Shown: positions 7,035-26,487 of the stretch, in pieces
Layout: each line of letters starts with the position of its first letter
Numbering within the stretch: position 1 is the stretch's first letter
DNA from: Paraburkholderia edwinii
Lineage (GTDB): Bacteria; Pseudomonadota; Gammaproteobacteria; Burkholderiales; Burkholderiaceae
DNA length: 64,000 nt
Direction of reading: 5' to 3'
Assembly: GCF_019428685.1 (NCBI RefSeq)
Contig: NZ_CP080096.1
Span: 3,162,001 to 3,226,000, forward strand
The notes under the pieces: generated by a model
Databases searched by the model: none
Told to the model about the DNA's origin: nothing
What the model saw: the letters and a program-made list of their open reading frames with translations, nothing else
Translations under genes and position numbers: made by a program

Positions 7035-7049
7035 TCACGCCCGACTGGA

Positions 7050-8525: not shown

Positions 8526-8734
8526 ACGGACTCTCCTGGTGAATGGCTAAACGGCGCGCCGATAACGGCACGCTTGAGTAAGGCTGTCTGGCTGCCGGCT
8601 CGCGCACGAGCGGCCAGTTTAAGGCCTGACTTCAATGCACTGCATAGCGCCCATTTTTATGTCGACATGCAATTGAATATTTTTCGCTAGACTCACAAAA
8701 ACTCAATCAAATCATAAAGTACGGAGACAGCGGA

Positions 8735-10423
8735 ATGAAAGTAACAACAAGTGAAACCGTAATCACCTCAAGCGTGCCGAACTCTGGACGGCGAGCCGTC
8801 TTGAAGAGCGTCGCGGCGCTCGCCGCCGGTGCGACGCTCCCCATGCTGTCCTCGTGCGCATCGACGTCTGCGTCCGTTGCTGCGAACCCGATCGCCGAGA
8901 CCCATGCCGGCAAGCTGCGCGGAAGCAATATTGCAGGGGTCGATGTATTCAAGGGCGTTCGCTATGCCGATAGCCCCGCAGGAGGTAACCGGTTTTTGCC
9001 GCCGCAGCCGGTGTCAGCCTGGGCCGGTGTAAAAGATGCGACCGCCTTCGGCGCATCCGCGCCGCAATCGCTTGAATCGCTAAGCCCGCTAAACAGCTGG
9101 TATGCGGCGTTGCAGCCGCAGAGCGAAGATTGCCTGTTTCTGAATGTATTCGCGCCGTCAAGTCAACGCACTTCGGCGAAACGCCCCGTGATGGTGTGGT
9201 TGCACGGCGGTGCGTGGTCAAATTGCGCCGGCACGGCGCCCGGCTTTGACGGCACGAACCTCGCACGCAATGGCGATGTCGTGGTCGTCACGGTCAATCA
9301 TCGGCTCAACGTATTCGGTTATCTCTATCTCGGCGACAAAGACACACGTTTCGCCGATTCGGCAAACGCGGGACTTCTGGATGTGGTCGCAAGCCTTCGC
9401 TGGGTACGCGACAACATCGCCGCGTTTGGCGGCAACCCTGACAATGTCACGCTGTTCGGCCAATCAGGCGGCGCGGCGAAAGTGGCGGCCATGATGGACT
9501 TTCCCGCTGCGCGCGGTCTGTTTCATAAGGCCGTGATCGAAAGCTGCTCGGGCGGAATTCATCTCGAGAGCCGGGACGAAGCCGCGAAGCAGGCTTATCA
9601 ATTAGGAGCGCGCCTCGGCATCGCGGATCTCGACCCGCTCAAGCTGCAGGCCGTGCCGATGGAACAGCTGATCGCCGCGATGAAGCCGGTGCGCGATCCG
9701 TTCCGGCCAGTCGTCGATGGTCGCGGCTTTACGCGGCATCCGTTCGACCCGGGCGCACCCGCGCAATCGGCAGGCATGCCCGTGCTGATCGGCAACGCGG
9801 CGACCGAGATGACGCTCTATATGGCGGCCGATCCGCGCAATTTCTCAGTCGACCTGACTGAGGTGACAAGGCGCACGGCGCTGCTGCTGAAGCAAAGCCC
9901 GGCATCGGCCGCGCGCATTGTGGATGCGTACCGCGCTGCGCAGCCGAACGCAACGCCTGGCGAACTGCTTGCCGCGCTGAGCACCGACTACGTGTTTCGC
10001 CGCAATACGACGCGCATCGCCGCGCTGCAGTCGGCGCAGGCGCCCGTCTACGATTACGTGTTCAACTGGAAGACGCCGGTGATGAACGGCAATCTGCAGT
10101 CGCCGCATACGGTCGAGGTGCCGTTCGTGTTCGGCACGGTCGACGCGGCACGTGGGCTTCTCGGCAGTGGGCCCGAGCTTTCGCGTCTATCTGGCGAGGT
10201 GATGGGCGCGTGGACGGCATTCGCGCGTACGGGTAACCCGAATACCGGTGCGATGCCGGAATGGGAGCCGTATGACACGACGCGCCGCGCGACCATGATG
10301 ATCGATACGGAGAGCCGTATCGAGAGCGATCCGGGTGGTGTTGCGCGACACGCACTCGATGGATTGCCGCCCTACGAGTACAGCATGGACCGCAATAGCG
10401 TGGTGCGGCCGTCGCGGGCTTAG
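8735..10423 (+). CDS. exported type-B carboxylesterase/lipase
   Basis: A 562-residue alpha/beta-hydrolase of the carboxylesterase type-B (PF00135) family. The N-terminus has a twin-arginine-like SGRRAVLKS (residues 17-25), a hydrophobic stretch and a lipobox-like LSSC with Cys41. It is therefore probably exported, perhaps as a Tat-dependent lipoprotein. The oxyanion hole is in WLHGGAW (His157) and the nucleophile Ser244 is in GQSGGA. The catalytic Glu and His are expected in the later lid and C-terminal region. ATG 8735 follows CGGAGACAG. Typical substrates are short-chain or aromatic esters; the natural one is unknown. Confidence 0.9.
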   Translation: MKVTTSETVITSSVPNSGRRAVLKSVAALAAGATLPMLSSCASTSASVAANPIAETHAGKLRGSNIAGVDVFKGVRYADSPAGGNRFLPPQPVSAWAGVKDATAFGASAPQSLESLSPLNSWYAALQPQSEDCLFLNVFAPSSQRTSAKRPVMVWLHGGAWSNCAGTAPGFDGTNLARNGDVVVVTVNHRLNVFGYLYLGDKDTRFADSANAGLLDVVASLRWVRDNIAAFGGNPDNVTLFGQSGGAAKVAAMMDFPAARGLFHKAVIESCSGGIHLESRDEAAKQAYQLGARLGIADLDPLKLQAVPMEQLIAAMKPVRDPFRPVVDGRGFTRHPFDPGAPAQSAGMPVLIGNAATEMTLYMAADPRNFSVDLTEVTRRTALLLKQSPASAARIVDAYRAAQPNATPGELLAALSTDYVFRRNTTRIAALQSAQAPVYDYVFNWKTPVMNGNLQSPHTVEVPFVFGTVDAARGLLGSGPELSRLSGEVMGAWTAFARTGNPNTGAMPEWEPYDTTRRATMMIDTESRIESDPGGVARHALDGLPPYEYSMDRNSVVRPSRA

Positions 10424-10531
10424 AGGCGTCTATCCGACCGACCGGCCGCGTACCAGGCCGGCGAACTCACTGGTCGAGCAGCGTCTCGAGGCACCGCTTC
10501 ACGCAGTTACCGAAGGGGCGTCATTAATCGG

Positions 10532-11515
10532 CTAAGTCGCGCTCTCCGTCACGCCGGCCCCTTGCCGTGGCCGCGTCGCGCCATCGAGACTCAGCACCGA
10601 CTGCGCGATGGCCTCTGTCGTAGCCAGCGTATCGATCGCGCCGGTGCGCAGCGCGCCAAGCACCGCTGTGGTTTTCGTGATCTCGCTGGCCACCGCGATG
10701 ACGTTGGGAATGCGCACGAGATCCTCGAACGACAGGCCAATCACACGGTCCGCGAACGGTGTGCGCGACGGTTGCCCAGCGAGATCGATGAAGTCGTAGC
10801 CCATCATGTCGCCGACCGCGCCGAGCTGCCGCACGGCGACGATTTCTTCGGGCGTGAACCACCCCATGCGCACCATGTTGCTGTCTTCATTGATGTCGCC
10901 GATACCGATCAGCGCGAGTTGGGCGCGCCGCGCGTGGTCGAGCGTCTGCTTGACCGTATCGTTTTGCAGCAACGCCTCGCGAGCCTGCGGATCGACGACC
11001 AGCGCCGGCGCATACAGTGTTTCGCTTTCGCCGCCGAAGCGCGCCGCGAGCCGCCGGCAGATATGGTCGGCATTCATGGCTTCGCCGCCGCGATACGCGC
11101 CGCCGATCGCGCAGACAAACTGGCAGGAACGGCGCGTCGATGAAATCGCGTGCTGTGAAATCGAGCTGATGTTGCGCCCCATCCCCACCGCGACGATCAT
11201 GCCGTCCGACAGAATGCGATCGAGATGGCTCGCGACGAGCCCGGCCAGCAATTCCCGCTGTTTGTCCTGGTCCTTGTGATTGACCGAAACGATCGCGCGT
11301 TCAAGCTTGAAGCGCGTGACGAGTTGCTGTTCGAGTTCGCTCGTATCGCGCGGATGATGCCGGACGCGGATTTCGACAATGCCCTCTTCCTGCGCCCGCT
11401 TGAGCAAACGCCCGACCTTGGCCCGCGAAATGGAGAATGTCTTCGACAGATCTTCCTGAGTGAGCCCATCGACATAGTAGAGGGTGGCAAGGCGTGTCAG
11501 TTCGTCGGTTTCCAT
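10532..11515 (-). CDS. SorC/DeoR-family sugar-binding transcriptional regulator
   Basis: A 327-residue regulator. Residues 1-55 hold a helix-turn-helix (TRLATLYYVDGLTQEDLSKTFSISRAKVGRLLKRA), followed by the SorC sugar-phosphate effector domain, which has a sugar-isomerase-like fold (DGMIVAVGMGRN, then GIGDINEDSNMVRMGWF and IAVASEITKTTAVLGALRTG). ATG 11515 is preferred over a start 14 codons upstream because TAAGGA lies just before it. Family members sense phosphorylated sugars. It is the last gene of a minus-strand block and very likely controls the rpiB, dhaKL and ABC genes upstream through the TGAWCA-type sites noted separately (inference). Confidence 0.92.
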   Translation of the reverse strand: METDELTRLATLYYVDGLTQEDLSKTFSISRAKVGRLLKRAQEEGIVEIRVRHHPRDTSELEQQLVTRFKLERAIVSVNHKDQDKQRELLAGLVASHLDRILSDGMIVAVGMGRNISSISQHAISSTRRSCQFVCAIGGAYRGGEAMNADHICRRLAARFGGESETLYAPALVVDPQAREALLQNDTVKQTLDHARRAQLALIGIGDINEDSNMVRMGWFTPEEIVAVRQLGAVGDMMGYDFIDLAGQPSRTPFADRVIGLSFEDLVRIPNVIAVASEITKTTAVLGALRTGAIDTLATTEAIAQSVLSLDGATRPRQGAGVTESAT

Positions 11516-11599
11516 CAGGCAATCCTTAGAAGTGGAATCGGGCTGCGACGATCGCAAGGATACCCACCGGTGCCCACCGCAGTACGCGTTGCCGGCGCA

Positions 11600-12091
11600 T
11601 CAGCCCGGTATTCGGTCACCGCCCGCGGCGCGCTCGTCCTCTTTCGCATGGAGCTCGGTCTCATATTGCTGGATGCGCTGCACCTTGGGCGTCGAGCGGC
11701 CGCCGTCGAACTGCGCGGCGAGGAAGGTATCGACAATGGTCTTCGCCAGTTCCGGGCCCACGACTCGCGCGCCAAGCGTCACGATCTGCGCGTCGTTGCT
11801 GCGGCTCGCCCGCTCGGCCGAATACGTATCGTGGCACTGCGCGGCGCGAATGCCCGGCACCTTGTTGGCCGAAATCGCCATGCCGATGCCCGTGCCGCAC
11901 AGCAATACCGCACGGTTGTATTCGCCGGTGACGACACGCTCCGCCACCGTAAACGCAATGTCGGGATAGATGACAGGCTGCGCATTATAGGTGCCGAAAT
12001 CCGTCACGTCGACACCTCGCTCCCGCAGGTGGGCCAGCAGTATCTCCTTCAGGTCGTAGGCGGCCTCGTCACACCCGATGGCAATCTTCAT
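11600..12091 (-). CDS. RpiB/LacAB-family sugar-phosphate isomerase, candidate D-erythrulose-4-phosphate isomerase
   Basis: A 163-residue RpiB-family isomerase. It has Asp8 in IAIGCDEA, the active-site Cys65 in LLCGTGIGMAISANK, and the downstream basic and polar loop after CHDTYSAERASRSND. The family interconverts aldose and ketose phosphates: ribose 5-phosphate, allose 6-phosphate, galactose 6-phosphate, or erythrulose 4-phosphate (DerI). It sits between the SorC regulator and a DhaK/DhaL/dehydrogenase operon, which favours a four-carbon ketose-phosphate substrate. Ribose-5-phosphate isomerase remains possible. The C-terminal tail past about residue 145 is longer and more charged than in plain RpiB. 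Confidence 0.88.
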   Translation of the reverse strand: MKIAIGCDEAAYDLKEILLAHLRERGVDVTDFGTYNAQPVIYPDIAFTVAERVVTGEYNRAVLLCGTGIGMAISANKVPGIRAAQCHDTYSAERASRSNDAQIVTLGARVVGPELAKTIVDTFLAAQFDGGRSTPKVQRIQQYETELHAKEDERAAGGDRIPG

Positions 12092-12157
12092 TCAGTCACT
12101 CCAGGCGCAATTTCGCGCAGATCTGCACATAAGTTCACTTTTTCAGCATTGTGAAAT

Positions 12158-12171
12158 TGAACATTTGATTA
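12158..12171. promoter_or_regulatory. candidate SorC-type operator upstream of rpiB
   Basis: TGAACATTTGATTA, 67 bases before the rpiB start codon. It matches the TGAWCA-N2-TGATCA pattern also found at 22238-22251 and 22442-22455. It lies in an AT-richer stretch suited to a promoter. The regulator assignment is inference. Confidence 0.5.
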
Positions 12172-12272
12172 GTCAAGAGCAAATTCTCGACGCACTTCCC
12201 ACGTGAATACAGGCATGCGGCTGCTACGCAGGCCACGCTATTAGCATTTTGCGGATATCTGCGCTATACAAA

Positions 12273-12296
12273 TGATCACACATGATCAAATGTCAC
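12273..12296. promoter_or_regulatory. candidate operator between permease and rpiB genes
   Basis: Two overlapping readings: TGATCACACATGATCA (12273-12288, a perfect pair of TGATCA half-sites 4 bases apart) and TGATCAAATGTCAC (12283-12296), which resembles the 2-base-spaced pattern at the other sites. It lies in the 244-base gap between the ABC permease and rpiB, the place where a separate rpiB promoter would be expected. Confidence 0.45.
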
Positions 12297-12335
12297 GCTT
12301 GATAAGCACGACTCATCGGAGGAGCCAGGAGGGGT

Positions 12336-13346
12336 CTATTTGATGATCCCGATCTTCTTCCGGTCGATCGTCACGAATACCGCGGCGATCAGCACGACGC
12401 CCTTGACGATGCTCTGGAGATACGGATCGACGCCCGCCATGTTCATGCCGTTCGACAGGATCGTAATGATCAGCACGCCGAGTATCGTGCCCTGCACACT
12501 GCCGAGCCCGCCCGTGAGCGGCGTGCCGCCCACCACCACCGCGGCGATCACATCGAGTTCGAGCCCCTCGCCGAGCTGCGACGTGGCCGCCATTGCGCGC
12601 GCGCTCTGCAGCAGGCCGGCGACGCCGCACAACAGGCCGAGCAGCGTGAACATGACGATCTTGACCCGATCGATGCGGATGCCGGTCAGCCGTGCCACGC
12701 GCTCGCCGCCGCCCGTCGCTTTCAGCTCGCGCGCGAACACCGTGAAGCGCAGCGCGCCCCAGCCGAGCACCACCACGCCGAGCGCGATCCACACGGCGTT
12801 CGGTACTGAGAGAGAGCGGCCCGAATAGAAATCGAGGAAGCTTTCGCTCTCGATCGACACCGGTGCGCCGCGCGTGAAATACAGCACGACGCCGCGAAAC
12901 ACGACCATCGTGCCCAGCGTCACGATGAACGACGGCACCTTTCCCTTCGCGACCACCACGCCATTCACAAAGCCGCACGCGAGGCCGACCAGCGCAGCCG
13001 GCACGATCGCGAACACGCCGAGCGCATTCGAACTCGCCGCGGCGGCCAGCGCGGCCAGCGCGACGATCGAGCCGACCGACAGATCGATCGACCCGGCGAT
13101 CACAACGAAGGTCATGCCGAGCGCGGCGACGGCCAGCACGACCGCCTGCTGCAGCACGATCAGCGCATTGCCGGGCGTCAGGAAGCGTCGCGAGCTGATC
13201 GAGAAGGCGATGCACAGCACGGCCAGCAGCAGCACCGGAAACATGCGCCGCAGCCGTTCCGGCCGCTCGCGCGAGGCACTGGCGTCAGCCGGACTGTCGG
13301 CGTGCTTGCGCCGGCCGGAAAGCAGGGAGGTAGACGGGCGGTTCAT
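12336..13346 (-). CDS. sugar ABC transporter permease (RbsC-type), transporter 1
   Basis: A 336-residue polytopic inner-membrane protein of the RbsC/XylH branch (BPD_transp_2). The first membrane helix begins near residue 34, and TFVVIAGSIDLSVGSIVALAALAAAA is the usual conserved core segment. GERVARLTGIRIDRVKI is the cytoplasmic coupling loop, and QLGEGLELDVIAAVVVGGTPLTGGLGSVQGT the late signature. The N-terminal about 30 residues are polar and basic. It is the last gene of transporter 1, 7 bases after its ATPase gene, and probably forms a homodimer with the ATPase at 13354. Confidence 0.93.
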   Translation of the reverse strand: MNRPSTSLLSGRRKHADSPADASASRERPERLRRMFPVLLLAVLCIAFSISSRRFLTPGNALIVLQQAVVLAVAALGMTFVVIAGSIDLSVGSIVALAALAAAASSNALGVFAIVPAALVGLACGFVNGVVVAKGKVPSFIVTLGTMVVFRGVVLYFTRGAPVSIESESFLDFYSGRSLSVPNAVWIALGVVVLGWGALRFTVFARELKATGGGERVARLTGIRIDRVKIVMFTLLGLLCGVAGLLQSARAMAATSQLGEGLELDVIAAVVVGGTPLTGGLGSVQGTILGVLIITILSNGMNMAGVDPYLQSIVKGVVLIAAVFVTIDRKKIGIIK

Positions 13347-13353
13347 GGTCGTC

Positions 13354-14832
<1,479 letters not shown>

Positions 14833-14887
14833 CTGCGAATACCGATGGGCATGAGCCGAAAGCCTCGCGTGCGTAACATCGCAACGG

Positions 14888-15955
14888 CTAGCTGTACTTC
14901 ATGTCGAACGACGCCGCCGGCGCATTGGGCGTATAGAAACGCGAATGCTTGCGGAAGTCGTAGGACGGAATGCCGTGCGGGAAGTCCTTTTCGAACTCGG
15001 GCACCTGCTCGCGCGTGAGCGGCAGCAGATTCAGCTTGACCGTGTCGTTCTGTTTGCTCACGGGCTTGCCCTTGATCTGGTCGAACAGCATCACGAGCGC
15101 GAAGCCGCCCTGCAGCCAGTGTCCGCCGATGTCGAACAGCAGCTCGCCACGCTTCACGGCTTCGACGTTTTCAGGATTCAGGTCCATCGCCACGACATAG
15201 ACATCCTTGCCGGGCACCTTGCCTGCATTCCTGAGCGCGGCCATCACGCCGGTCGCCGTGCCGCCATTCGCAGCCCAGACGCCCTTGATGTCGGGATGCC
15301 CCTGATACAGCGATTCGAACGCGGTCTGCGAGGTGTCGCGCACGAAGTTGCCGTCGACCTCGCCCGCCACCACGACTTCGGGATGCGCCTTCAGCGCGCG
15401 CCCGAGGCCCTTGCGCCGGTCGATCGCGACCGACGTGCCGGCCGTGCCGTTGACCACGCCGATCACCTTCTTTCCGTTGGCACCGGCCGGCACCGCGGCA
15501 AACAGCTTGAGCGCCATCTGATAGCCGGCCTCCTCGTCGCTCGGCCCGATAAAGGCGATGTAGTTCGGAAAGCGCGGCGTCTGCGGGCTGAAGTCGGGAT
15601 AGGAGTCCGTGAGGATGACCGGGATGCCCGCATTCTTCGCCAGCGTGAGTCCCGGCACCGCCGTCGACCAGTACGGCGTGAAGATGATGCCGTCGACTTT
15701 CTGCGCGGTCAGATCTTCGAGACTGCTTACCATGCGGTCCGGCTTATTGTCCGCGTTGAGCACGGTCAGATCGACACCGAGCTGGCTGGCGCCCTGCTTC
15801 ATGAAGTCGATGTAGTTGTTCCAGAACTGCGCGTCGAGCGTCGGCACCACCACGCCGATGCGGACCTTCTGCTCCGCCGCGCGCACGCCGGCGGCAAGCG
15901 GCAGTAACGCAATACTCGTCAGGTATTTCAGGGACCGCCGTTTGCTGGCCTGCAT
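14888..15955 (-). CDS. periplasmic sugar-binding protein, transporter 1
   Basis: A 355-residue type I periplasmic binding protein of the Peripla_BP_4 family. The signal peptide is residues 1-26 (basic KRRSLKYL, hydrophobic core, GVRAAEQ cleavage). The mature start IGVVVPTLDAQFWNNY is the typical first strand; TAQKVDGIIFTP and AANGGTATGVMAALR are the hinge and second-lobe landmarks. AAGGAG precedes ATG 15955. It is followed closely by its ATPase and permease. The ligand cannot be read from sequence; the operon suggests a tetritol, a ketotetrose or another small polyol. Confidence 0.92.
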   Translation of the reverse strand: MQASKRRSLKYLTSIALLPLAAGVRAAEQKVRIGVVVPTLDAQFWNNYIDFMKQGASQLGVDLTVLNADNKPDRMVSSLEDLTAQKVDGIIFTPYWSTAVPGLTLAKNAGIPVILTDSYPDFSPQTPRFPNYIAFIGPSDEEAGYQMALKLFAAVPAGANGKKVIGVVNGTAGTSVAIDRRKGLGRALKAHPEVVVAGEVDGNFVRDTSQTAFESLYQGHPDIKGVWAANGGTATGVMAALRNAGKVPGKDVYVVAMDLNPENVEAVKRGELLFDIGGHWLQGGFALVMLFDQIKGKPVSKQNDTVKLNLLPLTREQVPEFEKDFPHGIPSYDFRKHSRFYTPNAPAASFDMKYS

Positions 15956-16099
15956 GTTCGTCTCCTTGTGGTTGTTCTGCCATTGCGCGCCCGCCTCGTT
16001 CAGACAGCGGGTCTCCTCGCGCAGATTCGCCTCACGGTTACTTCGTCACGCTTGTTTCGTTACGCTTGTTTTCTCACGGTTGCGCGCGCGAGGCGCGCT

Positions 16100-16804
16100 C
16101 TAGGCAGGCTGCTTTCCAACCTGCTTCGATCCGCTGCCTTCCAGGTTCGCGGAACCTTCGAGCAACGCGCCCAGCGATTCGCTCATGCTGCGCAGGATCA
16201 GGAAGCATGAACACGCGCCCGCGTCGAGTACGCCGATCGAACGATCGCCGAGCCGGCTGGCACGGCCGACGCGCGCGCGCAGATCGCGCGTGGAATTCAT
16301 GCCGGCCTCGGCGGCCGCCGTCATGGCGTCGAGGCACGCGCGGAACGAACGGTTTTCCGCAAGCGCCGCCTCGTACGCGGCACGCGCCGGCTCGAGCGTG
16401 TCGATCAAGGTCTTGTCGCCTACTTTCGCGTCGCCGATCGCCTGGACCGCGTCGATGCCGGCCGACAGGGCGCGATAGAACAGCTGCTTGTCGAGCGACG
16501 CGTGCGCGTCGAGGACGCTGCTCATGTCGAGAAAGAACGAGCCGTATAGCGGCCCCATCGATCCGCCGATGCCGCCCATCAGCGCATCGGACAGATCGGC
16601 CAGCGCAACGGGCAGTGACGGCGGCGCAGCGCGTTTCGCAAGACGCTCGCCGCATTGCGAAAAGCCCTTGCTCATGTTGATGCCGTGATCGCCGTCGCCG
16701 ATCGCGCCGTCGATCTCGCTCAGATAGGTGCGGTTGCGATTGATGACGCCGATCAGATCGGCCACCACGCTGCCCGCGGCGGACATGTCGAGCGTGTCGG
16801 TCAC
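16100..16804 (-). CDS. dhaL: DhaL-type kinase subunit (ADP/ATP-binding domain)
   Basis: A 234-residue homologue of the ATP-binding subunit of dihydroxyacetone kinases. The signature GDGDHG (about residues 36-41) holds the Asp cluster that chelates two magnesium ions with the nucleotide, and GGIGGSMGPLYGSFF is the second nucleotide-loop motif. The start is GTG 16804: it overlaps the dhaK stop codon as GTGA and follows GGGAGA inside dhaK, a clear translational-coupling arrangement. No DhaM phosphoryl carrier is nearby, so ATP is the likely donor. In C4-polyol pathways the same fold phosphorylates erythrulose; in known DerK/LerK enzymes the two parts are fused. Confidence 0.92.
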   Translation of the reverse strand: MTDTLDMSAAGSVVADLIGVINRNRTYLSEIDGAIGDGDHGINMSKGFSQCGERLAKRAAPPSLPVALADLSDALMGGIGGSMGPLYGSFFLDMSSVLDAHASLDKQLFYRALSAGIDAVQAIGDAKVGDKTLIDTLEPARAAYEAALAENRSFRACLDAMTAAAEAGMNSTRDLRARVGRASRLGDRSIGVLDAGACSCFLILRSMSESLGALLEGSANLEGSGSKQVGKQPA

Positions 16805-17808
16805 GATGCGTCTCCCACGGTGATGCCGATGCTGCGGCACGGATGGTGAAGCGCGCGCGAAAGCTGTTCGTCGAGTCGCGTCAGCGTGACGGTCACGCCC
16901 ATCATCTCGAGAGAAGTGAACAGATTGCCCACGCGCGAAAAGCCGATCTCGACGCCGGCCTCGCGCAGATAGTCGGCCACCTCGCCGTACAGGATGTACT
17001 GCTCCATCAGCGGCGTGGCGCCCAGCCCCGAGACCAGCAACGCGACCTTGTCGCCGCGCGCGAAAGGCAGATCGGGCAGCAGCGTATCGAGCATGCGCTT
17101 CGCCATGTCCTTCGCCGGCACGGTGCGCTGGACTTCGATGCCGGGCTCGCCGTGATGGCCGATGCCGACTTCCATGTCACCGTCCTTGATCGTGAAGTTG
17201 GCCTTGCCCACCGCCGGAATGGTGCAGGCGGACAGACCAATGCCGATCGAGCGCGTCGACTCGATCGCATGGCGCGCGGCCGACACGACTTCGTCGAGCG
17301 ACGCGCCTTGCGCAGCGCAGGCGCCGGCGACCTTCCACATGATGATCTCGCCGGCCACGCCGCGGCGTTTCGCGATTTCCTCGGGCGGCGCCGATGCGGC
17401 GTCGTCGTTGGCGACGACCGGCACCACGCGGATCCCGTCGCGTTCGGCCATGCGCATCGCCATCTTGACGTTCATGTTGTCGCCCGCATAGTTGCCGTAC
17501 AGGCACGCCACGCCCGCGCCGCCGTCGGCGGCCTTGAACGCGTCGGCAAACGACTTTGCGGTTGGCGACGAAAAGATCTCGCCGACCGCAACCGCGTCGA
17601 CGAGGTGCTCGCCGACGTAGCCGATGAACGCCGGTTCGTGACCTGACCCGCCGCCTGTGACGATCCCCACGCGGCCCTTCTGTCCTGCGTTCACATGCGA
17701 GACCACGCGCGCGTTGTCGGCCGCGGCGCGCAGTTCAGGGTGCGCCGCGAGAATGCCGCGCAGCATGTCCTCGACAACCAGATCCGGATTGTTGATGACG
17801 CGATTCAT
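16801..17808 (-). CDS. dhaK: DhaK-type kinase subunit (ketose-binding domain)
   Basis: A 335-residue homologue of the substrate-binding subunit of dihydroxyacetone kinase. GGGSGHEPAFIGYVG (from about residue 51) builds the substrate pocket, and MEVGIGHHGEPG carries the histidine (His218 or His219) that binds the ketone covalently as a hemiaminal. The length matches DhaK. AAGGAAAG precedes ATG 17808. It is coupled to dhaL by a 4-base overlap. With the dehydrogenase upstream and an RpiB-type isomerase downstream, the likely substrate is a ketotetrose such as D-erythrulose rather than dihydroxyacetone (inference). Confidence 0.93.
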   Translation of the reverse strand: MNRVINNPDLVVEDMLRGILAAHPELRAAADNARVVSHVNAGQKGRVGIVTGGGSGHEPAFIGYVGEHLVDAVAVGEIFSSPTAKSFADAFKAADGGAGVACLYGNYAGDNMNVKMAMRMAERDGIRVVPVVANDDAASAPPEEIAKRRGVAGEIIMWKVAGACAAQGASLDEVVSAARHAIESTRSIGIGLSACTIPAVGKANFTIKDGDMEVGIGHHGEPGIEVQRTVPAKDMAKRMLDTLLPDLPFARGDKVALLVSGLGATPLMEQYILYGEVADYLREAGVEIGFSRVGNLFTSLEMMGVTVTLTRLDEQLSRALHHPCRSIGITVGDAS

Positions 17809-17859
17809 GAGCTTTCCTTGGACTCTCTGATTGCTTTATTGAGCTGCTTGATGGGACTT

Positions 17860-17907
17860 GATTCGGACGTTGATTCGAACATTGATTGCGACGTTGATCG
17901 GGCCGCT
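17860..17907. repeat. 12-base degenerate tandem repeat, about four copies
   Basis: Consecutive units GATTCGGACGTT, GATTCGAACATT, GATTGCGACGTT and a weaker GATCGGGCCGCT. They fill half of the 98-base gap between the dehydrogenase and dhaK genes, reaching the dehydrogenase stop codon. Confidence 0.75.
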
Positions 17908-18674
17908 TATTGAGCCGTGTATCCGCCATCGATCACGATGTTCTCGCCATTCACCATCGCGGCCGCATCGCTCGCGAGGTAGAGAATCAGCGCGCCGATT
18001 TCGTCGGGGCGGGCAAAACGGCCGGCCGGAATTTTTGCCTTCATCGCCTCGCCGACCGCGCCCGCCCATGCCTTGCGGCCCAGTTCGGTCTCGACCACGG
18101 TCGGCGAGACCGCATTGACCGTAATGCCGTGCTTCGCCCACTCGAGCGCGAGCACCTTCGTCATGCCGACGATCGCCGCCTTGCTCGCGCAGTACGCGAC
18201 ATGACGCTCGAGTGCGATCACGCTGGCCTGCGACGCGAGATTCACGATGCGTCCGTAACCGCGCCGGATCATCTCGCGGCCGGCCGCCTGCGCGAGCAGA
18301 AACGGCGCCTTCAGGTTGAGCGCCATGGTGCGGTCCCAGGCGTCTTCGCTGAGTGTCTCCGCCGGTTCGAGCAGCGCCACGCCGGCATTGTTGACAAGGA
18401 TGTCAAGCTGACGGCATTGGCCCACCACGTCGCGCACCGCCGCCTCGGCGGCGCCGGGCGCGACAAGATCGGCCACCACCGCGACGTGCTGCCCCGCGCC
18501 GCCCGGCAGCGTCGCGACAACCTCGCGGACCGCCGGATTGATGTCGAGCAGCGCCAGCCTCGCGCCCGCTGCCGCGAGGCTTTCGGCGGCCGCAAGACCA
18601 ATGCCGCTCGCCGCGCCGGTAACGAGCGCCACGCGGCCGCTCAGATCGAAAAGACTGCCTGCTTGCTGCGCCAT
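17907..18674 (-). CDS. SDR-family polyol dehydrogenase, candidate D-threitol dehydrogenase
   Basis: A 255-residue classical short-chain dehydrogenase. It has TGAASGIG (residues 19-26), NNAG (95-98) and the catalytic set Ser148, Tyr161 and Lys165 (YCASK). Asp44 at the end of the second strand predicts NAD over NADP. The segment SPTVVETELGRKAW after the active site resembles, from memory, tetritol dehydrogenases of the mycobacterial threitol pathway; this should be treated as a hint. GGAGTGG precedes ATG 18674. The gene lies between binding protein 2 and dhaK on the same strand. The likely role is oxidation of a polyol to the ketose used by DhaK/DhaL. Confidence 0.88.
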   Translation of the reverse strand: MAQQAGSLFDLSGRVALVTGAASGIGLAAAESLAAAGARLALLDINPAVREVVATLPGGAGQHVAVVADLVAPGAAEAAVRDVVGQCRQLDILVNNAGVALLEPAETLSEDAWDRTMALNLKAPFLLAQAAGREMIRRGYGRIVNLASQASVIALERHVAYCASKAAIVGMTKVLALEWAKHGITVNAVSPTVVETELGRKAWAGAVGEAMKAKIPAGRFARPDEIGALILYLASDAAAMVNGENIVIDGGYTAQ

Positions 18675-18702
18675 GGGTCCACTCCGGTCAATGACGTACT
18701 GC

Positions 18703-19713
18703 TTACTGTTGCGAGACTTCGCGAACCTTCTTCAGGATGGCGTCCGCATTCGCCTGGGTGACCTGCGTCCAGGGCACCGTGTACGACTTGTCGGTACCGC
18801 CGTTCCACGGCATCTTCGCGCCGTACTCGGTCCAGATTTCCGACTGCGGCTTGTACGACGGGCCGACCACCGCGCGCATCGCGAGGTCGAGCGCGCCTTG
18901 CGACTGCGCCTTCGCATCCTGGAAGAAGGTGGTCATTTCGCCGCGCTTGGCTGCCTGGATGCCGTCGGCAATGCCGTCGATACCGGCCACCGGAATCTTC
19001 TTCGGGTCGAGCCCCTTCGACTTCATCGCCTGGATCGCGCCAAGCGCTTCCTCGTCGTTCTCCGCGATGACGCCGTTGATCTGGCCGGGATGCGAGGTGA
19101 GCCAGTCCTCGACGAGCGCGAGCGCCTCGGCACGCGACCAGTTCGCGGTCTTGTTCTCGAGCACCTTCACATCCTTGTGCTGCGCAAGCACTTCGGCGAT
19201 GCCCTTCGAGCGGTCGATCTGCGCCGACTGGCCGATCGGCCCCTCGATGATCACGACGTTGCCCTTGCCGCCAATCGCCTTGACGATCGCCTCGGCCTCG
19301 AGCCGGCCCGCGACGACGTCGTCGTTGCCGACATACGACGTGAGCTGGTTGCCGGAGATGTGCGTGTTGGAGCCGATCACCGGAATATGAGCAGCCACGG
19401 CCTTCGCAACGGCGGCCGAGCCGGCGTTCTTGTCGATCGGCGCGAAGATGATCGCGTCGTATTTCTGCGTGATCATCGTGTCGAACTGATTGCTTTGCGT
19501 GAGGGCATCGTAGTTGCCATCGAACACGACAATTTGCACCGAGCCGTTCTTCACTGCCGGGTCCTGTTTGACGGCGTTGGTCCACATCTGCATGAACTCA
19601 GCCTTGAGCCCGTACGGCATGACGCCGATACGAACCGGCTGCGCCGCCTGCGCAACGCTCATGGTCATCGCGGCGAGCACCGCCGCCAGCATTGCCTGCT
19701 TCCGAAGCTTCAT
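18703..19713 (-). CDS. periplasmic sugar-binding protein, transporter 2
   Basis: A 336-residue type I binding protein (Peripla_BP_4). The signal peptide is residues 1-23 (MKLRKQAMLAAVLAAMTMSV then AQA). YDAIIFAPIDKNAGSAAVAKA and GVIAENDEEALGAIQAMKSKG are classic ribose/galactose-type landmarks. ATG 19713 is chosen because AGGAG lies 8-12 bases ahead and it gives a clean signal peptide; a longer in-frame start adds 19 unlike residues. It belongs with the permease at 19748 and the ATPase at 20734. Sequence alone does not give the ligand. Confidence 0.93.
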   Translation of the reverse strand: MKLRKQAMLAAVLAAMTMSVAQAAQPVRIGVMPYGLKAEFMQMWTNAVKQDPAVKNGSVQIVVFDGNYDALTQSNQFDTMITQKYDAIIFAPIDKNAGSAAVAKAVAAHIPVIGSNTHISGNQLTSYVGNDDVVAGRLEAEAIVKAIGGKGNVVIIEGPIGQSAQIDRSKGIAEVLAQHKDVKVLENKTANWSRAEALALVEDWLTSHPGQINGVIAENDEEALGAIQAMKSKGLDPKKIPVAGIDGIADGIQAAKRGEMTTFFQDAKAQSQGALDLAMRAVVGPSYKPQSEIWTEYGAKMPWNGGTDKSYTVPWTQVTQANADAILKKVREVSQQ

Positions 19714-19747
19714 TGATCGTCTCCTGGGATTGTTGTTAAGTACTGCG

Positions 19748-20737
19748 TCACTGCTTCTTGCGCGATACATCGAGCAGAACGGCCCCGACGATGATCACGC
19801 CTTTCACGACCTGCTGGTAATAGGACGACACGCCGAGCAGATTCAGACCGTTGTTGATCACGCCGATCAGCAGCGCGCCGACCACCGTGCCGCCCAGCGA
19901 ACCCGAACCGCCCGAGAGGCTCGTGCCGCCGATCACGACCGCGGCGATCGCATCGAGCTCGTACGACAGGCCTGCCTGCGGCAGCGCCGAGGTCGTGCGC
20001 GCGGCCAGCACGATGCCGGCGAGTCCCGCAAGCAGACCGCCTATCACGTACACCGAAAAGATGATCTTGCTGGTCGAAATGCCGCTCGTTTTTGCACTCT
20101 TCGCGTTGCCGCCGACCGCGTAGACGTAGCGGCCGTAGGTGGTGTAGCGCAGCACGAACCAGAACAGCAGCACGACCAGCACGAACACGATCACCGGAAC
20201 GGGTACGCCGGCGAAGGTGCCGGTGCCCGCGCTCAGGTAGCCGTCGGGCAGATCGGCGATCGGCATGCCGTCGTTGTAGATGAAGGTCAGCCCGCGCGCG
20301 ACGCTCAGCATGCCGAGCGTGGCCACGAACGATGGAACCGCGAGCCGCGCGACCACAATGCCGTTGACCGCGCCGACCGCCGCGCCGACCAGCAGGCCCG
20401 CCAGCAGCCCGAGTGCGATACCGTGCGGATGCGCGCCGGTCACGACACTCGCGCTGACCATACCGGCCAGCGCGAGTGTCGAGCCGACCGACAGATCGAT
20501 GCCGCCGGTCAACACGACATAGGTCATGCCGACGGCGAGAATCCCGTTGATCGAAGTCTGTCGCAGGACGTCGGCAATGTTGCCCCACGTCAGGAAGTAC
20601 TGGTTCGCGAAAGACAGCACGATGCACAGCAGGACCAGCACCGCGAGAATGCCGTAGCGCCGGTACAGCTGATGCATCTGCGCGGCGCGGCTCTGTTGCG
20701 CGGGAACGCTGACGGAAGGTGAGAGTTGTGTATTCAT
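19748..20737 (-). CDS. rbsC-like: sugar ABC transporter permease (RbsC-type), transporter 2
   Basis: A 329-residue inner-membrane permease very close to the ribose-type consensus: MTYVVLTGGIDLSVGSTLAL, LLGLLAG-type helices, VPSFVATLGMLSVARG and the late DAIAAVVIGGTSLSGGSGSLGGT. The start ATG 20737 overlaps the stop codon of the ATPase gene (ATGA), so the two are translationally coupled. Membrane helices begin near residue 28 after a short cytoplasmic tail. Its sequence is nearer RbsC than that of transporter 1, suggesting a different substrate or an independent origin. Confidence 0.94.
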   Translation of the reverse strand: MNTQLSPSVSVPAQQSRAAQMHQLYRRYGILAVLVLLCIVLSFANQYFLTWGNIADVLRQTSINGILAVGMTYVVLTGGIDLSVGSTLALAGMVSASVVTGAHPHGIALGLLAGLLVGAAVGAVNGIVVARLAVPSFVATLGMLSVARGLTFIYNDGMPIADLPDGYLSAGTGTFAGVPVPVIVFVLVVLLFWFVLRYTTYGRYVYAVGGNAKSAKTSGISTSKIIFSVYVIGGLLAGLAGIVLAARTTSALPQAGLSYELDAIAAVVIGGTSLSGGSGSLGGTVVGALLIGVINNGLNLLGVSSYYQQVVKGVIIVGAVLLDVSRKKQ

Positions 20738-22212
20738 GACGCGAGGTGCAGAAGATCTTCCTGGCTGGAGAGATGGCCGTCGATCACGGAGACCAACCGC
20801 CCTGACTTGAAGATGGCGATGCGATCGCTGACGTCGAGTACTTCCTGTGCTTCCGACGACACGACAATGGCCGCGCCGCCTTGCGCGACGAAATCGTCGA
20901 GCAACTGGTAAATCTCGCGCTTCGCGCCTTCGTCGATGCCGCGCGTCGGCTCGTCGCACAGCAGGCAGACGGGCCCGGTCGACAGACAGCGGGCCAGCAC
21001 GACCTTCTGCTGGTTGCCGCCGCTCATCGACGAGACGGGCAGCGAGGCCGAGGCGGTCTTGATGCGCATGCGCTCGATCATCGAGCGCACAAGCGTTTTG
21101 ACCTTGCGTCCATCGATCAGCGAAAAGCGCGACAGCGACGGATACGCAGACAATGAAATGTTGTCGCGCACCGACGAAGACAGAATCAGGCCGGTTTCCT
21201 TGCGATCTTCGGTGACGAGCGCGAGACCGGCGCGGATCGCCTTGCGCGGACTGCCCGACGGAAGACGACGCCCTTTGAATTTCACTTCGCCATCCTGCGC
21301 ATCGGTGAGCCCGTACAGGCAATTCAGATACTCGCTGCGGCCCGATCCCATCAGTCCGTAGATGCCGAGCACTTCGCCGGCGCTGACCGACAGCGAAATA
21401 TCCTCGAACTCGGTGTTGCGCGACAGGCCCGTGGTTTCGAGCACGATCTGCCCGGTAGGCCGGCGCTTTTTCTCGCTCTGATTGAGCTTGCGCCCGACGA
21501 TGGTGCTGACCAGATAAGAACGGTCGATATCGGCAATGCGCCCGCTGTCGACATAGCGGCCGTCGCGAAACACCGTGTATCGGTCAGCAATCCGGAATAC
21601 TTCGGAGAGGCGATGGGTCACATAGATGATGCCGGTGCCCTGCGCGGTCAGGCTGCGGATCGCATTGAACAGCACCTCGGTTTCCGATTCGCCGATCGCG
21701 GAGGTCGGCTCGTCCATGATCATGACGTCGCACTCGCGGCTAAACGCCTTGGCGATTTCCACGAGCTGGATTTGCGCGAGGCTCAGCGAGTCGACGGTTG
21801 CGCGCGCATCGATCGCGAAGCCGAGCCGGTCGAGCAGATCCTGCGCCTTGCGTGCAAGCGCGTTGAACTTCACGAGCACGCCGGCTCGCTTCGGCTCGCG
21901 TCCGAGATAGAGGTTCTCGGCCACCGTCATGCCGCGGATCGGCGTGAGCTCCTGCGTGATGATCGCGATCCGGTTGGCGAGCGCGTCGGCCGGCGACCGG
22001 AAGTTGACCTCGCGCCCGTTGAGCAGAACCGTGCCCGCATCGCGCTCGAGGATGCCCATAAGGATGCTGAGGAAGGTCGACTTGCCGGCGCCGTTGCCGC
22101 CGCACAGTGCGTGGACGCTTCCGCGATGCAGGCTCAAGCGACCGTCTGCGAGCGCGGGAACGCCGTCGAAAGCCTTTTGCAAACCGCTCGCCTCGAGTAA
22201 CAGATCGCTCAT
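20734..22212 (-). CDS. sugar ABC transporter ATPase (RbsA-type, duplicated), transporter 2
   Basis: A 492-residue tandem-domain ATPase. Domain 1: Walker A GGNGAGKST, signature SLSLAQIQLVEIAKAF, Walker B VMIMDEPTSAI. Domain 2: a degenerate Walker A (GLMGSGRSE, normal for the family), SMSGGNQQKVVLARCL and CLLCDEPTRGIDEG. It is the first gene of the long minus-strand operon. The start codon lies 26 bases from a TGAACAATTGATCA palindrome, so transcription from here is probably repressor-controlled. The operon order ATPase, permease, binding protein, dehydrogenase, dhaK, dhaL places it at the head of the catabolic set. Confidence 0.94.
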   Translation of the reverse strand: MSDLLLEASGLQKAFDGVPALADGRLSLHRGSVHALCGGNGAGKSTFLSILMGILERDAGTVLLNGREVNFRSPADALANRIAIITQELTPIRGMTVAENLYLGREPKRAGVLVKFNALARKAQDLLDRLGFAIDARATVDSLSLAQIQLVEIAKAFSRECDVMIMDEPTSAIGESETEVLFNAIRSLTAQGTGIIYVTHRLSEVFRIADRYTVFRDGRYVDSGRIADIDRSYLVSTIVGRKLNQSEKKRRPTGQIVLETTGLSRNTEFEDISLSVSAGEVLGIYGLMGSGRSEYLNCLYGLTDAQDGEVKFKGRRLPSGSPRKAIRAGLALVTEDRKETGLILSSSVRDNISLSAYPSLSRFSLIDGRKVKTLVRSMIERMRIKTASASLPVSSMSGGNQQKVVLARCLSTGPVCLLCDEPTRGIDEGAKREIYQLLDDFVAQGGAAIVVSSEAQEVLDVSDRIAIFKSGRLVSVIDGHLSSQEDLLHLAS

Positions 22213-22237
22213 CCTCGCTCCATCATTTGCTCATCAA

Positions 22238-22251
22238 TGAACAATTGATCA
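22238..22251. promoter_or_regulatory. candidate SorC-type operator before the ABC/dhaKL operon
   Basis: TGAACAATTGATCA, a near-perfect palindrome of two TGAWCA half-sites around AT, 25 bases upstream of the ATPase start codon. It is the best copy of the shared motif. That position would overlap a promoter or early leader, as expected for a repressor site. Confidence 0.6.
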
Positions 22252-22423: not shown

Positions 22424-22456
22424 TGAGAATTTGATCTATATCGAACATATGATCGA
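22424..22456. promoter_or_regulatory. paired candidate operators in the divergent intergenic region
   Basis: Two motif copies 18 bases apart: TGAGAATTTGATCT (22424-22437) and TCGAACATATGATCGA (22441-22456), the second a 16-base near-palindrome. They lie roughly midway in the 428-base gap between the minus-strand ATPase operon and the plus-strand third transporter, so they could act on either promoter. Confidence 0.5.
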
Positions 22457-22640: not shown

Positions 22641-23894
22641 ATGCTGTCGAACATCAACGGTGCGCGGCCATACCCGGTGACGGGCCGCAACTTCAGCACG
22701 CGCGGCGGGTGGCGCGGGTCCGCCATGCTTACGTGCGCGTTCCTTTGCGGCGGATTGCTGGCGGCCGGCCACGCGTTCGCACAAACGCCAACGCGCGCGA
22801 CGCCCTATGACGCATGGCCGCAACCGCAAATCCGCAAGACGATTTCCGTCGACGAAGCGAAAGCCATCGTCAAGGAACGCACGCAGGCGCAAACCGAATG
22901 GAAAGGACCGACCAGCGGTCCGCGCGCATCGACCAAACCGCTGACCATCGTCTACGTGTCGGCGGACCAGTCGTACGTGTCGTTCGTCAACTGGGGCCGA
23001 GGCGTCACCGAAGCGGCCAAGGCACTGGGCTGGAACGCCGTCGTGCTGAACGGCCAGGGCACCGTGACCGGCACGCTCTCCGCGATGCAACAGGCCGTCG
23101 CGAGCAAGCCGGCCGCAATCGTGACGTCAGCCGACGCCAGCGCATTGCAAGGCCCGATCAAGCAGGCCGTGGCGCAGCACATTCCGGTGATCGGCATTCA
23201 CGCGACCGCGTTCCCGGGCCCCGATCCGAAGCTCGGCCTGTACAACAACATCTCGTCGAATCCCGCTGAAATCGGCGAGACGCAAGCGGCCTATGTGATC
23301 GCCGAATCGAACGGTACGGCCAAAGCCCTGCACTTCCTCGACAACAGCTTCGCGATTGCGCGTTTCAAGGCCGAGGCAGCGACCGATCCGATCAAGGCAT
23401 GCAGCGGCTGCAAGTTCATCGACATGGTGAACATTCCGATCGCCGACCAGACGCGCCGGATTCCGGCGGTGATCTCCGGCATCGTCGCGAATCAGGGCAA
23501 GGGCTGGTGGGGTACCACCTGCTGCGACAACTTCTATCCGTACGTTGCGTCGGCGTTGCGCGCCTCGGGCGTGAAGCCCGACGAAGTGCATCTGGTCGGC
23601 TCGGACGGGCCGCCGTCCGCCTACGACATGATCCGCAAAGGCGAATACGAAGTCGCGACCGTCCCGGAACCGAGCACGCTGTTCGGTTATGAGGCGGTGG
23701 ACTCGATCGTGCGCGCGATGGCCGGCGAACCGCCGTCGAAGTTCGTGCAGCCGACTTATCTCGTCACGAAAGAAAACGCCGATGCCGAAGGCGGCAAGAA
23801 CAATGAGTTCATTCCGAGCAACGGCTTCGCATGCCACTACCAGAACATCTGGCGCGGCACGAACACGGCCTGCGGCGGCAAGAGCGGAGGCTAG
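22641..23894 (+). CDS. periplasmic sugar-binding protein, transporter 3 (extended, Cys-rich)
   Basis: A 417-residue type I binding protein. A signal peptide with a long basic n-region (about residues 1-48, ending GHAFAQ) precedes an extension of about 45 residues (to near residue 95). The core fold then begins with LTIVYVSADQSYVSFVNWGRGV. The mature protein carries several cysteines (CSGC, TTCCDN, FACHY, TACGG), suggesting periplasmic disulfides, which is unusual for this family. GAGGAGACGTC precedes ATG 22641. The ATPase gene follows after 2 bases. Ligand unknown. Confidence 0.87.
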   Translation: MLSNINGARPYPVTGRNFSTRGGWRGSAMLTCAFLCGGLLAAGHAFAQTPTRATPYDAWPQPQIRKTISVDEAKAIVKERTQAQTEWKGPTSGPRASTKPLTIVYVSADQSYVSFVNWGRGVTEAAKALGWNAVVLNGQGTVTGTLSAMQQAVASKPAAIVTSADASALQGPIKQAVAQHIPVIGIHATAFPGPDPKLGLYNNISSNPAEIGETQAAYVIAESNGTAKALHFLDNSFAIARFKAEAATDPIKACSGCKFIDMVNIPIADQTRRIPAVISGIVANQGKGWWGTTCCDNFYPYVASALRASGVKPDEVHLVGSDGPPSAYDMIRKGEYEVATVPEPSTLFGYEAVDSIVRAMAGEPPSKFVQPTYLVTKENADAEGGKNNEFIPSNGFACHYQNIWRGTNTACGGKSGG

Positions 23895-23896
23895 CG

Positions 23897-25438: not shown

Positions 25439-26487
25439 ACAGCACCAGCGGAAACGGCGTCGAATCGAACAGCGCAAGCGGGCCGGCGGCGCCGCACAGG
25501 CCGCCGCCCACGGCCGCGAAACGCGCGGCCGACCTGTTCGCGAATTACGGGCTGATTTTCGTGTTCGCGCTCGTTCTGATCGTGTTTTCCGCGCTGCGGC
25601 CGGACACGTTTCTGAGCAGCGGCAATATCGGCAACCTGCTGACGAGCCAGTCGGTGACGGCGCTGCTCGCGTTCGCGGTGATGCTGCCGCTCGCGACCGG
25701 ACGCTTCGATCTGTCGGTCGGCTATCACGTGGGCATGGCGCAGGTGCTCGTAATCGGCTTTCAGGTCAACAACGGGATGTCGTGGCCCATCGCCGCCGTG
25801 CTCGTCATCGCAATCGGCGCGGTGGTCGGCCTGATCAACGGCATTCTCGTTACGCGCTTCAAGATCGATTCGTTTATCGCGACGATGGGCATGGGCTCGC
25901 TGCTCTACGGCGTATCGAACTGGTACACGGGCGGCCAGCAGATCGCCGGCTTCAATCTGCCCGACAGCTTTTCGAATCTGTCGCAGGTGCTGGGCTATGT
26001 GCCGCTGCCCGCCGTCTATGTCGCCGTGGTCGCGATCGTGCTGTGGATCGTGCTCGAGCGGCTGCCGGTCGGACGCAGCCTCTATGTGATCGGCTCGAAC
26101 GCACGCGCGGCGGAACTCTCCGGCCTGCGCACCGGCAGCTACATCAGCAGCGCCTTCGCCGCATCGGGGCTGTTGTGCGGCATCGCGGGCGTGCTGCTCG
26201 GCAGCATTCTGCGTTCGGGCACGCCCTCGGTCGGCGCTGAATATTTGCTGCCGGCATTCGCCGGGTCGCTGCTCGGCGCGACGTCGATCCGGCCGGGGCG
26301 TGTGAACGTCGGCGGCACGCTGCTCGCGATCCTGATCGTCGCGTTCTCGTTTTCGGGCGTGCAGCAGCTGGGCGCGCCGTTCTATGTCGAATATTTCTTC
26401 AACGGCGGCATTCTGATCGTGGCAGTCGCGCTGTCCGTGTACGCGGCTATCCGTCGCCGTAAAGCGGCCGTGAATGCGGCCAGCTAA
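25435..26487 (+). CDS. sugar ABC transporter permease (RbsC-type), transporter 3
   Basis: A 350-residue polytopic permease. A polar, Ser/Pro-rich N-terminal tail of about 35 residues precedes the first helix (LIFVFALVLIVFSAL). Conserved family segments are PLATGRFDLSVGYHVGMAQ, FKIDSFIATMGMGSLLYG, and the coupling loop SNARAAELSGLRTGSY. The canonical GGIDLS core reads TGRFDLS here, marking a divergent subgroup. The start overlaps the ATPase stop by 4 bases. It forms the membrane part of transporter 3. Confidence 0.92.
   Translation: MNSTSGNGVESNSASGPAAPHRPPPTAAKRAADLFANYGLIFVFALVLIVFSALRPDTFLSSGNIGNLLTSQSVTALLAFAVMLPLATGRFDLSVGYHVGMAQVLVIGFQVNNGMSWPIAAVLVIAIGAVVGLINGILVTRFKIDSFIATMGMGSLLYGVSNWYTGGQQIAGFNLPDSFSNLSQVLGYVPLPAVYVAVVAIVLWIVLERLPVGRSLYVIGSNARAAELSGLRTGSYISSAFAASGLLCGIAGVLLGSILRSGTPSVGAEYLLPAFAGSLLGATSIRPGRVNVGGTLLAILIVAFSFSGVQQLGAPFYVEYFFNGGILIVAVALSVYAAIRRRKAAVNAAS

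Follow-up and report, generated by a model that had tools for sequence, protein, structure and literature searches.

A predicted tetritol operon with a split DhaK/DhaL kinase and a SorC-family regulator in Paraburkholderia edwinii

Which compound is broken down by a gene cluster that combines a split DhaK/DhaL kinase, an RpiB-family isomerase and two sugar importers? The question is raised by a locus of Paraburkholderia edwinii, whose 8.3 Mb genome consists of two contigs. The window analyzed here is a stretch of 64,000 nucleotides of that genome (contig NZ_CP080096.1, G000:C2:3162001-3226000). A first-pass annotation had described, on one strand, a short-chain dehydrogenase/reductase (SDR), separate DhaK and DhaL subunits, an RpiB-family isomerase, a SorC regulator and two transporters, and all of these genes were found intact between 10532 and 22212. 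Eleven open reading frames on the minus strand, from 22212 down to 10532, are ordered as importer A, SDR, DhaK, DhaL, importer B, RpiB and SorC, and the subunits follow one another as ATPase, permease and binding protein in importer A and as binding protein, ATPase and permease in importer B. The genes are as follows.

20734..22212, minus strand: abcA, ATP-binding subunit of ATP-binding cassette (ABC) importer A, CUT2 type (profile matches and locus comparison)
19748..20737, minus strand: permA, permease of ABC importer A (ATG start placed; kept in related loci)
18703..19770, minus strand: sbpA, substrate-binding protein of ABC importer A (PDB matches 4rsm, 5hko and 4rs3)
17907..18674, minus strand: SDR dehydrogenase of the GolD/DthD family, predicted to convert a tetritol to D-erythrulose (NF005309)
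16801..17808, minus strand: DhaK-type kinase subunit, predicted to convert D-erythrulose to D-erythrulose 4-phosphate (PF02733; motif GHHGEPG)
16100..16804, minus strand: DhaL, nucleotide-binding subunit of the DhaK kinase (PF02734)
14888..15955, minus strand: sbpB, substrate-binding protein of ABC importer B (profile matches; genus search)
13354..14832, minus strand: abcB, ATP-binding subunit of ABC importer B (profile matches; locus comparison)
12336..13346, minus strand: permB, permease of ABC importer B (profile matches; locus comparison)
11600..12091, minus strand: RpiB-family isomerase, predicted D-erythrulose-4-phosphate isomerase (profiles and residue signature)
10532..11557, minus strand: SorC-family regulator (PF04198, 245 bits; kept in 9/9 genus loci)

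The GTGA overlap previously claimed for dhaK and dhaL could be read directly at the 3' end of dhaK, which closes with ...GCA TCG TGA and contains an internal GTG usable as the dhaL start.

Taken together, the cluster probably encodes the conversion of a tetritol, via D-erythrulose and D-erythrulose 4-phosphate, to D-erythrose 4-phosphate, with every substrate and the order of the steps predicted from sequence. It would be an operon under SorC control that allows growth on a C4 polyol. Importer A would take up the tetritol, most likely D-threitol and possibly erythritol, and the GolD/DthD-type SDR would oxidize it to D-erythrulose; D-threitol is favored as the polyol because of the SDR family. 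The ketose would be held on a histidine of DhaK while DhaL supplied phosphate from ATP, and the resulting D-erythrulose 4-phosphate would be converted to D-erythrose 4-phosphate by the RpiB-family isomerase.

The isomerase was compared residue by residue with E. coli RpiB. Asp9 and Cys66 are kept, while Glu10, Ser99, Gln103 and Lys137 stand in place of His, His, Asn and Arg, so that the ring-opening His99 of ribose-5-phosphate isomerase B, together with its Asn103 and Arg137, has given way to Ser, Gln and Lys. Ser99, Gln103 and Lys137 are present in all 11 window-type and all 16 actinobacterial isomerases. The Ser99 and Gln103 pair was also found in the rhizobial-type loci with a triosephosphate isomerase (TIM) family gene and a DeoR regulator (L151, L152, L157 and L158), in an OiaX locus of R. 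etli (L150), in the DhaK loci of Rubrobacter, Alicyclobacillus, Enterococcus gilvus and Halomonas, and in the loci L191 and L192; these loci have Lys or Asn at position 137. His99 with Asn103 was seen in the E. coli and C. thermocellum enzymes and in those of a ribokinase locus, a ribulose-phosphate epimerase and phosphotransferase system (PTS) locus and a tripartite ATP-independent periplasmic (TRAP) transporter locus. RpiB rows were taken from 15 places in the order, of which three (the own gene and two cluster members) were counted as cluster rows, two (L173 and L174, weak or partial) were dropped and ten were treated as others after about 1.5 kb on each side had been compared with the window proteins; eight of these ten carry His99 and Asn103 and two carry Asn99. 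The sampled rows comprise 39 with Ser, 13 with His and 2 with Asn at position 99.

Set against gene context, Ser99 and Gln103 were found in 37 of 37 isomerases encoded beside DhaK, TIM or OiaX genes and in none of 15 others, although the 37 do not represent 37 independent events because the rows are related. Two more Ser99 rows, L075 (a truncated locus with no DhaK) and 5ifz, lie outside this context group. When the signature columns were removed from the isomerase tree, the His99 rows grouped together (87/97, bootstrap not settled) and two changes of the label were needed; the approximately unbiased (AU) test did not reject a single clade made up of the 39 Ser99 rows (p-AU 0.057). None of the RpiB literature passages that were searched connects the residue signature with gene context. 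Loss of His99 could mark a D-erythrulose-4-phosphate isomerase, because tetrulose 4-phosphate is unable to form a furanose ring. His99 is described as the furanose ring-opening residue, and its replacement in H99N as lowering kcat 26-fold, in available passages of PMC3755991. At the phosphate end, passages of PMC4783025 report that His10 of the E. coli enzyme contacts the phosphate, that two arginines anchor it in the Leishmania enzyme and that the kinetics of H11N are near-normal. Few genomes of the order have an RpiB-family gene (14/349, own genome included), and a search of the P. edwinii genome returned one RpiA, one RpiB-family gene and one TIM. A role as housekeeping isomerase was rejected on this rarity, the presence of RpiA and the residue signature.

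The relationship of importer A and the dehydrogenase to the Mycolicibacterium smegmatis D-threitol pathway (DthD, DerK and DerI), reportedly described by Huang et al. in 2015, was studied through actinobacterial loci. The best PDB matches of the sbpA product were 4rsm, 5hko and 4rs3 (178, 168 and 167 bits), which are mycobacterial CUT2 proteins of M. smegmatis; 4rsm is reported to have been solved with D-threitol. The 4rsm sequence was scanned against one genome per species, and the best 80 of 174 stretches gave 78 loci. In those listed, the importer binding proteins are 34-46% identical to the sbpA product and the ATPases 36-42% identical to that of abcA. Of the 78, 13 combine a Dak kinase, an RpiB and an SDR with a homologue of importer A. 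In one of these, L009 of M. iranicum, the genes follow one another as kinase, RpiB, ATPase, permease, binding protein and SDR, and the kinase is a 99% match to a protein listed by NCBI as D-erythrulose 4-kinase (the name was looked up for L009 alone among the 13). The window SDR scored 370 bits on the NCBI model NF005309 (GolD/DthD), above the cut-off of 286, and the L009 SDR scored 389 bits. In a quick tree of 40 SDRs, both fell into one 32-row group with SDRs of actinobacterial Dak-kinase loci. Micrococcaceae SDRs from Dak-kinase loci were nested inside the Burkholderiales group, a sign of exchange between phyla. The earlier claim that the dehydrogenase, kinase and isomerase set of the mycobacterial pathway recurs here is supported by the 13 loci, by the SDR score and by the isomerase signature.

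The kinase was placed in a tree of 56 DhaK domains, with 18 relatives chosen from the best 120 of 7941. The nearest named relatives belong to Paraburkholderia sp. (87%), Burkholderia humptydooensis and Cupriavidus sp. (82% each) and Herbaspirillum (76%). The window kinase lies in a 31-row clade (100/100), apart from the 10-row clade of the L009 kinase (100/99), and the three other DhaKs of its own genome sit elsewhere in the tree. The substrate-binding histidine motif GHHGEPG is present in 116 of the 120 listed relatives, while rows outside the clade have GIHGEPG, two excepted that show other variants. A two-member branch formed by the DhaK of L123 and P0071 was observed to carry GHHGEHG. The split kinase had been proposed as a departure from the known fused forms, but this did not hold: seven of the 31 clade rows are fused and nested among split ones, which amounts to a single change, and one fused kinase (L141) sits in a complete operon of this type. 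The DhaM profile TIGR02364 gave no match in the genome at E 0.001, as had been claimed, and was positive in 3 of 14 control genomes. A PTS-driven kinase was therefore rejected, and ATP is the likely phosphate donor. With only one TIM found in the genome as well, an ATP-driven route through D-erythrulose 4-phosphate is favored.

The distribution of the cluster was explored by genome searches. A DhaK at at least 70% identity was found in 9 of 144 genus genomes, own genome included, while some DhaK is present at E 1e-60 in 125 of the 144. Beyond the genus, the window-type DhaK was detected in 3 of 399 genomes of the order (E 1e-120) and 9 of 398 of the phylum (E 1e-110), own genome included in each. 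Importer A, SDR, DhaK, DhaL, RpiB and SorC occur together in all nine genus loci with this DhaK, and the cluster is more than a chance assembly. Importer A is present in 9/9 and importer B in 4/9 (G000, G074, G091 and G097); in the five without importer B, rpiB-sorC lies on the opposite strand, adjoining abcA. The core set is also kept in G325 and G280 (L140 and L141), from other families of the order, with a fused kinase in G280. A Sphaerotilus plasmid locus (L003) has a fused DhaK-DhaL adjoining rpiB and sorC, and neither importer A nor a close SDR was found in that stretch. Among six further phylum loci, SDR, DhaK, DhaL and RpiB occur together in two (L191 and L192), which come from the small genomes G582 (2.5 Mb) and G820 (2.0 Mb) and lie beside a medium-chain dehydrogenase/reductase (MDR). 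This MDR is 49-51% identical to one that M. wolinskyi carries 5.5 kb away from a kinase of the DerK clade, a link that counts for the proposed D-erythrulose route. An aldehyde dehydrogenase gene at 7050-8525 of the window was considered as a further member and rejected, since it had no match in the stretches taken from 10 related loci (L116-L123, L140 and L141); it is 37% identical to the aldehyde dehydrogenases beside importer B relatives.

The promoter regions of the cluster share an operator-like motif, TGARMAWWTGA, at the following sites.

12158..12168, plus strand: operator-like site TGAACATTTGA upstream of rpiB
22223..22233, minus strand: operator-like site TGAGCAAATGA upstream of abcA
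22238..22248, plus strand: operator-like site TGAACAATTGA upstream of abcA
22424..22434, plus strand: operator-like site TGAGAATTTGA upstream of abcA

These are the only four sites in the 64 kb, all within the two promoter regions of the cluster, against 0.17 expected by chance, a figure that is too kind because the pattern was drawn from words common to these regions. A looser core of the motif is present in 12 of 14 intergenic regions of the own (two) and related clusters, and it recurs once more in the window, at 60583. The restriction to two promoters and the repeats in relatives speak for a common, putative SorC operator.

Several findings weigh against the tetritol assignment. The window kinase clade is distinct from the mycobacterial DerK clade in the DhaK tree: Dak1 and Dak2 domains are both present, but a common exclusive clade of the window kinase and DerK was neither shown nor rejected (p-AU 0.109, or 0.452 without two long rows) in a test that included row L135, which nests inside DerK. 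The M. smegmatis locus was not among the best 80 of the 174 stretches from the 4rsm query, so that DerK is identified here through the name NCBI gives to the M. iranicum kinase. A related SDR without a Dak kinase or RpiB in the stretch was found in 53 of the 78 actinobacterial loci, and importer A relatives therefore probably serve other pathways too; the remaining loci are one with kinase and SDR, one with RpiB and SDR, and ten with none of the three, five of these being stretches of <12 kb. The SDR groups with those of actinobacterial Dak-kinase loci in the quick tree, but its family does not fix the substrate, as GolD and DthD are mixed within it and membership alone does not separate D-threitol from other polyols; its nearest PDB chain, 4npc, is named sorbitol dehydrogenase. 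The isomerase shares Ser99 and Gln103 with enzymes of Dak-kinase and TIM loci, yet reaches only 190 bits on the NCBI rhizobial DerI model (cut-off 240) and passes the RpiB models TIGR01120 (150 against 138.65) and PRK05571. The L009 isomerase behaves alike, with 149 bits on the DerI model and a score above the cut-off of an actinobacterial model named ribose-5-phosphate isomerase. Among the phylum loci, L189, L193 and L194 hold an importer A homologue, SDR, DhaK and DhaL with no RpiB in the stretch read, the Shinella locus L002 likewise has no RpiB in the stretch read, and L190 has DhaK, DhaL, SorC and a more distant importer with neither SDR nor RpiB in the stretch.

In four of these loci the sugar-binding domain of SorC was observed to be fused to a complete DhaK (L002 5766-7883, L189 10961-13048, L193 7346-9421 and L194 5875-7971). 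The L002 fusion matches PF04198 and PF02733, and the other three show SorC and DhaK matches in one open frame. The fusions adjoin a second DhaL and a set of importer A, SDR, DhaK and DhaL (on the Shinella plasmid and in three phylum genomes). It is possible that such a protein is a ketose-sensing regulator; DhaQ represents a similar idea.

That erythritol, or erythritol together with D-threitol, is the true entry substrate of the cluster enzymes, oxidized by the SDR to D-erythrulose, is somewhat unlikely; this would be a sub-case of the D-erythrulose route, and its odds overlap with that route. Of the tetritols, erythritol is the more common. In mycobacteria, however, the erythritol enzyme EltD belongs to the MDR family, of which the window cluster has no gene, and the window SDR belongs to a family named for DthD. 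Because erythritol may also be oxidized to D-erythrulose, D-threitol as the single substrate is something we infer. According to passages of PMC10733421, EltD and the kinase LerK take erythritol to D-erythrulose 4-phosphate, with DerI required and erythritol kinase and LerI dispensable. A sequence for LerK was sought, and none was identified. The search for an erythritol kinase (the FGGY kinase EryA) was confined to the genes of the cluster, and no FGGY kinase is among them. The earlier argument that a missing erythritol kinase and TIM-barrel isomerase speak against the erythritol route therefore stands for the Brucella/rhizobial pathway and for L-erythrulose 1-phosphate, but does not apply to erythritol oxidized to D-erythrulose. 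A route from L-erythrulose or L-threitol through L-erythrulose 1-phosphate is improbable, although two Paraburkholderia isolates are reported to grow on L-erythrulose in passages of PMC12780249: it needs the TIM-barrel isomerase LerI, and was rejected since the single TIM-family gene (PF00121) found in the genome lies outside the cluster and leaves no LerI candidate.

There is likewise little chance that the operon is of a dihydroxyacetone or glycerol type, in which the SDR would make dihydroxyacetone, DhaK-DhaL would phosphorylate it and RpiB would be incidental. The Dak1 and Dak2 domains are generic, DhaL passes the NCBI dihydroxyacetone kinase DhaL model (173 bits, cut-off 138) while DhaK falls below the cut-off of the NCBI dhaK1 model (348 against 406 bits), many named relatives are called dihydroxyacetone kinase and the nearest PDB chain of DhaK is 3ct4, a PTS dihydroxyacetone kinase subunit. 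Against this reading, no DhaM was found in the genome, the cluster genes include no DhaR-type regulator, RpiB and SorC are present in all nine genus loci and in two other families, and the isomerase has its signature and gene context. Still more remote is a pathway for pentoses or pentitols in which the isomerase is a true ribose-5-phosphate isomerase B. The RpiB models are passed and many plasmid relatives are annotated rpiB, but the exchange of His99 and Asn103 for Ser and Gln follows gene context, His10 and Arg137 are changed as well, and the genome has an RpiA.

The D-erythrulose route was also set beside known systems. A pathway of this kind is known from mycobacteria, and the M. smegmatis D-threitol pathway likewise has a GolD/DthD-family SDR, a Dak-type kinase, an RpiB-type isomerase and a homologous CUT2 importer. 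In contrast to it, the window kinase is split and belongs to another Dak clade (GHHGEPG as opposed to GIHGEPG), a SorC regulator lies beside rpiB and a second importer has been added. DhaK and DhaL are separate subunits as in E. coli DhaKLM; unlike in that system no DhaM was found, and DhaK is 35% identical to E. coli DhaK and falls into another clade. The erythritol pathway of Brucella and rhizobia consists of EryA, EryB, EryC, EryH/TIM and EryI/RpiB. The rhizobial-type TIM and DeoR loci, which we take to be erythritol loci, share the Ser99/Gln103 signature with the window isomerase; in contrast to them, no second TIM-family gene was found in the P. edwinii genome and the cluster has a Dak-type kinase in place of an erythritol kinase. 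The plasmids of E. gilvus and Alicyclobacillus (L154 and L155) were observed to carry an RpiB with Ser99, a TIM and DhaK/DhaL, with DhaM as well in E. gilvus, and are candidate L-erythrulose routes in Bacillota. The locus of Alicyclobacillus fastidiosus (L155) resembles the window in its split DhaK/DhaL and Ser99-type RpiB and differs in a TIM-family isomerase, major facilitator superfamily (MFS) transporters and the lack of an annotated SDR in its 8.4-kb stretch.

Importer B raises a separate question of cargo. A search of the 144 genus genomes at E 1e-60 found its sbpB gene in four, always inside this cluster. In the order (399 genomes, E 1e-50), only the own genome matched, along with a single relative at 33% that belongs to G056 of the same genus. 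Importer B is probably a later addition, since it was found in four related strains. In G074 (L180 and L181; G074:C36:14889-15955) the binding-protein gene was seen as two matching pieces in separate open frames. Among 72,556 plasmid records, relatives at 71-79% on the binding protein were found in three, two from Mesorhizobium ciceri and one from Shinella. In one of the M. ciceri plasmids, the importer genes are divergent from genes for a DUF1537 kinase, PdxA and AldA, and in Shinella sp. PSBB067 they lie between a divergent DeoR gene and genes for PdxA and an aldehyde dehydrogenase. DUF1537 with PdxA is a mark of four-carbon acid-sugar breakdown, and because relatives adjoin such genes a four-carbon cargo is likely. 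Importer B may import another C4 compound, such as free D-erythrulose or a tetrose. A wider proposal, doubtful as a whole, is that the GHHGEPG clade is a D-erythrulose 4-kinase line apart from DerK that has spread with the SDR, and often a Ser99 isomerase, across Pseudomonadota, and that importer B serves uptake of D-erythrulose or a tetrose. Importer genes for free tetrulose or tetrose are called unreported in passages of PMC12780249.

Two other gene runs of the genome were observed. Divergent from the cluster, at 22641-29284 on the plus strand of the window, lie genes for a binding protein, an ABC ATPase, a permease, a 3-hydroxyacyl-CoA-dehydrogenase-like protein, a GntR-type regulator and an SMP-30-type lactonase; the dehydrogenase-like protein passes the cut-off of NF004783, the regulator scored 230 bits on a NanR model (below the cut-off of 260), and the run is a putative further sugar or sugar-acid operon. 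On the other contig, locus L124 (G000:C1:1955500-1974500, positions 2000-10903) holds an MtnK-like kinase, an MtnA-like isomerase, a class II aldolase (these three named by eye from their sequences), a sugar ABC importer and a split DhaK/DhaL. This run looks like a methylthioribose or 5-deoxyribose shunt that has an importer and a ketose kinase of its own, and DhaKs of the L124-type 45-49% group recur in many genomes of the genus.

None of the titles listed in searches of the tetritol and erythrulose literature describes this operon, with most subscription journals outside the coverage. The NCBI model for the SDR already gives a hint of what one gene does, and growth on tetruloses has been reported for the Burkholderia group without genes in passages of PMC12780249. 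Few gene sets have been worked out for the catabolism of tetroses and tetritols, and the operon offers a complete candidate set in this group. For synthetic formaldehyde assimilation, passages of PMC10733421 suggest that microbes living on tetritols could supply improved erythrulose-phosphate isomerases. If it proved true on a full count, the Ser99/Gln103 signature would be a simple sequence test separating tetrulose-phosphate isomerases from true RpiB, names that are mixed in databases. It would also offer a reading for the puzzle of the C. immitis enzyme, where passages of PMC3212906 describe a His-to-Ser change and the authors suspected shorter substrates.

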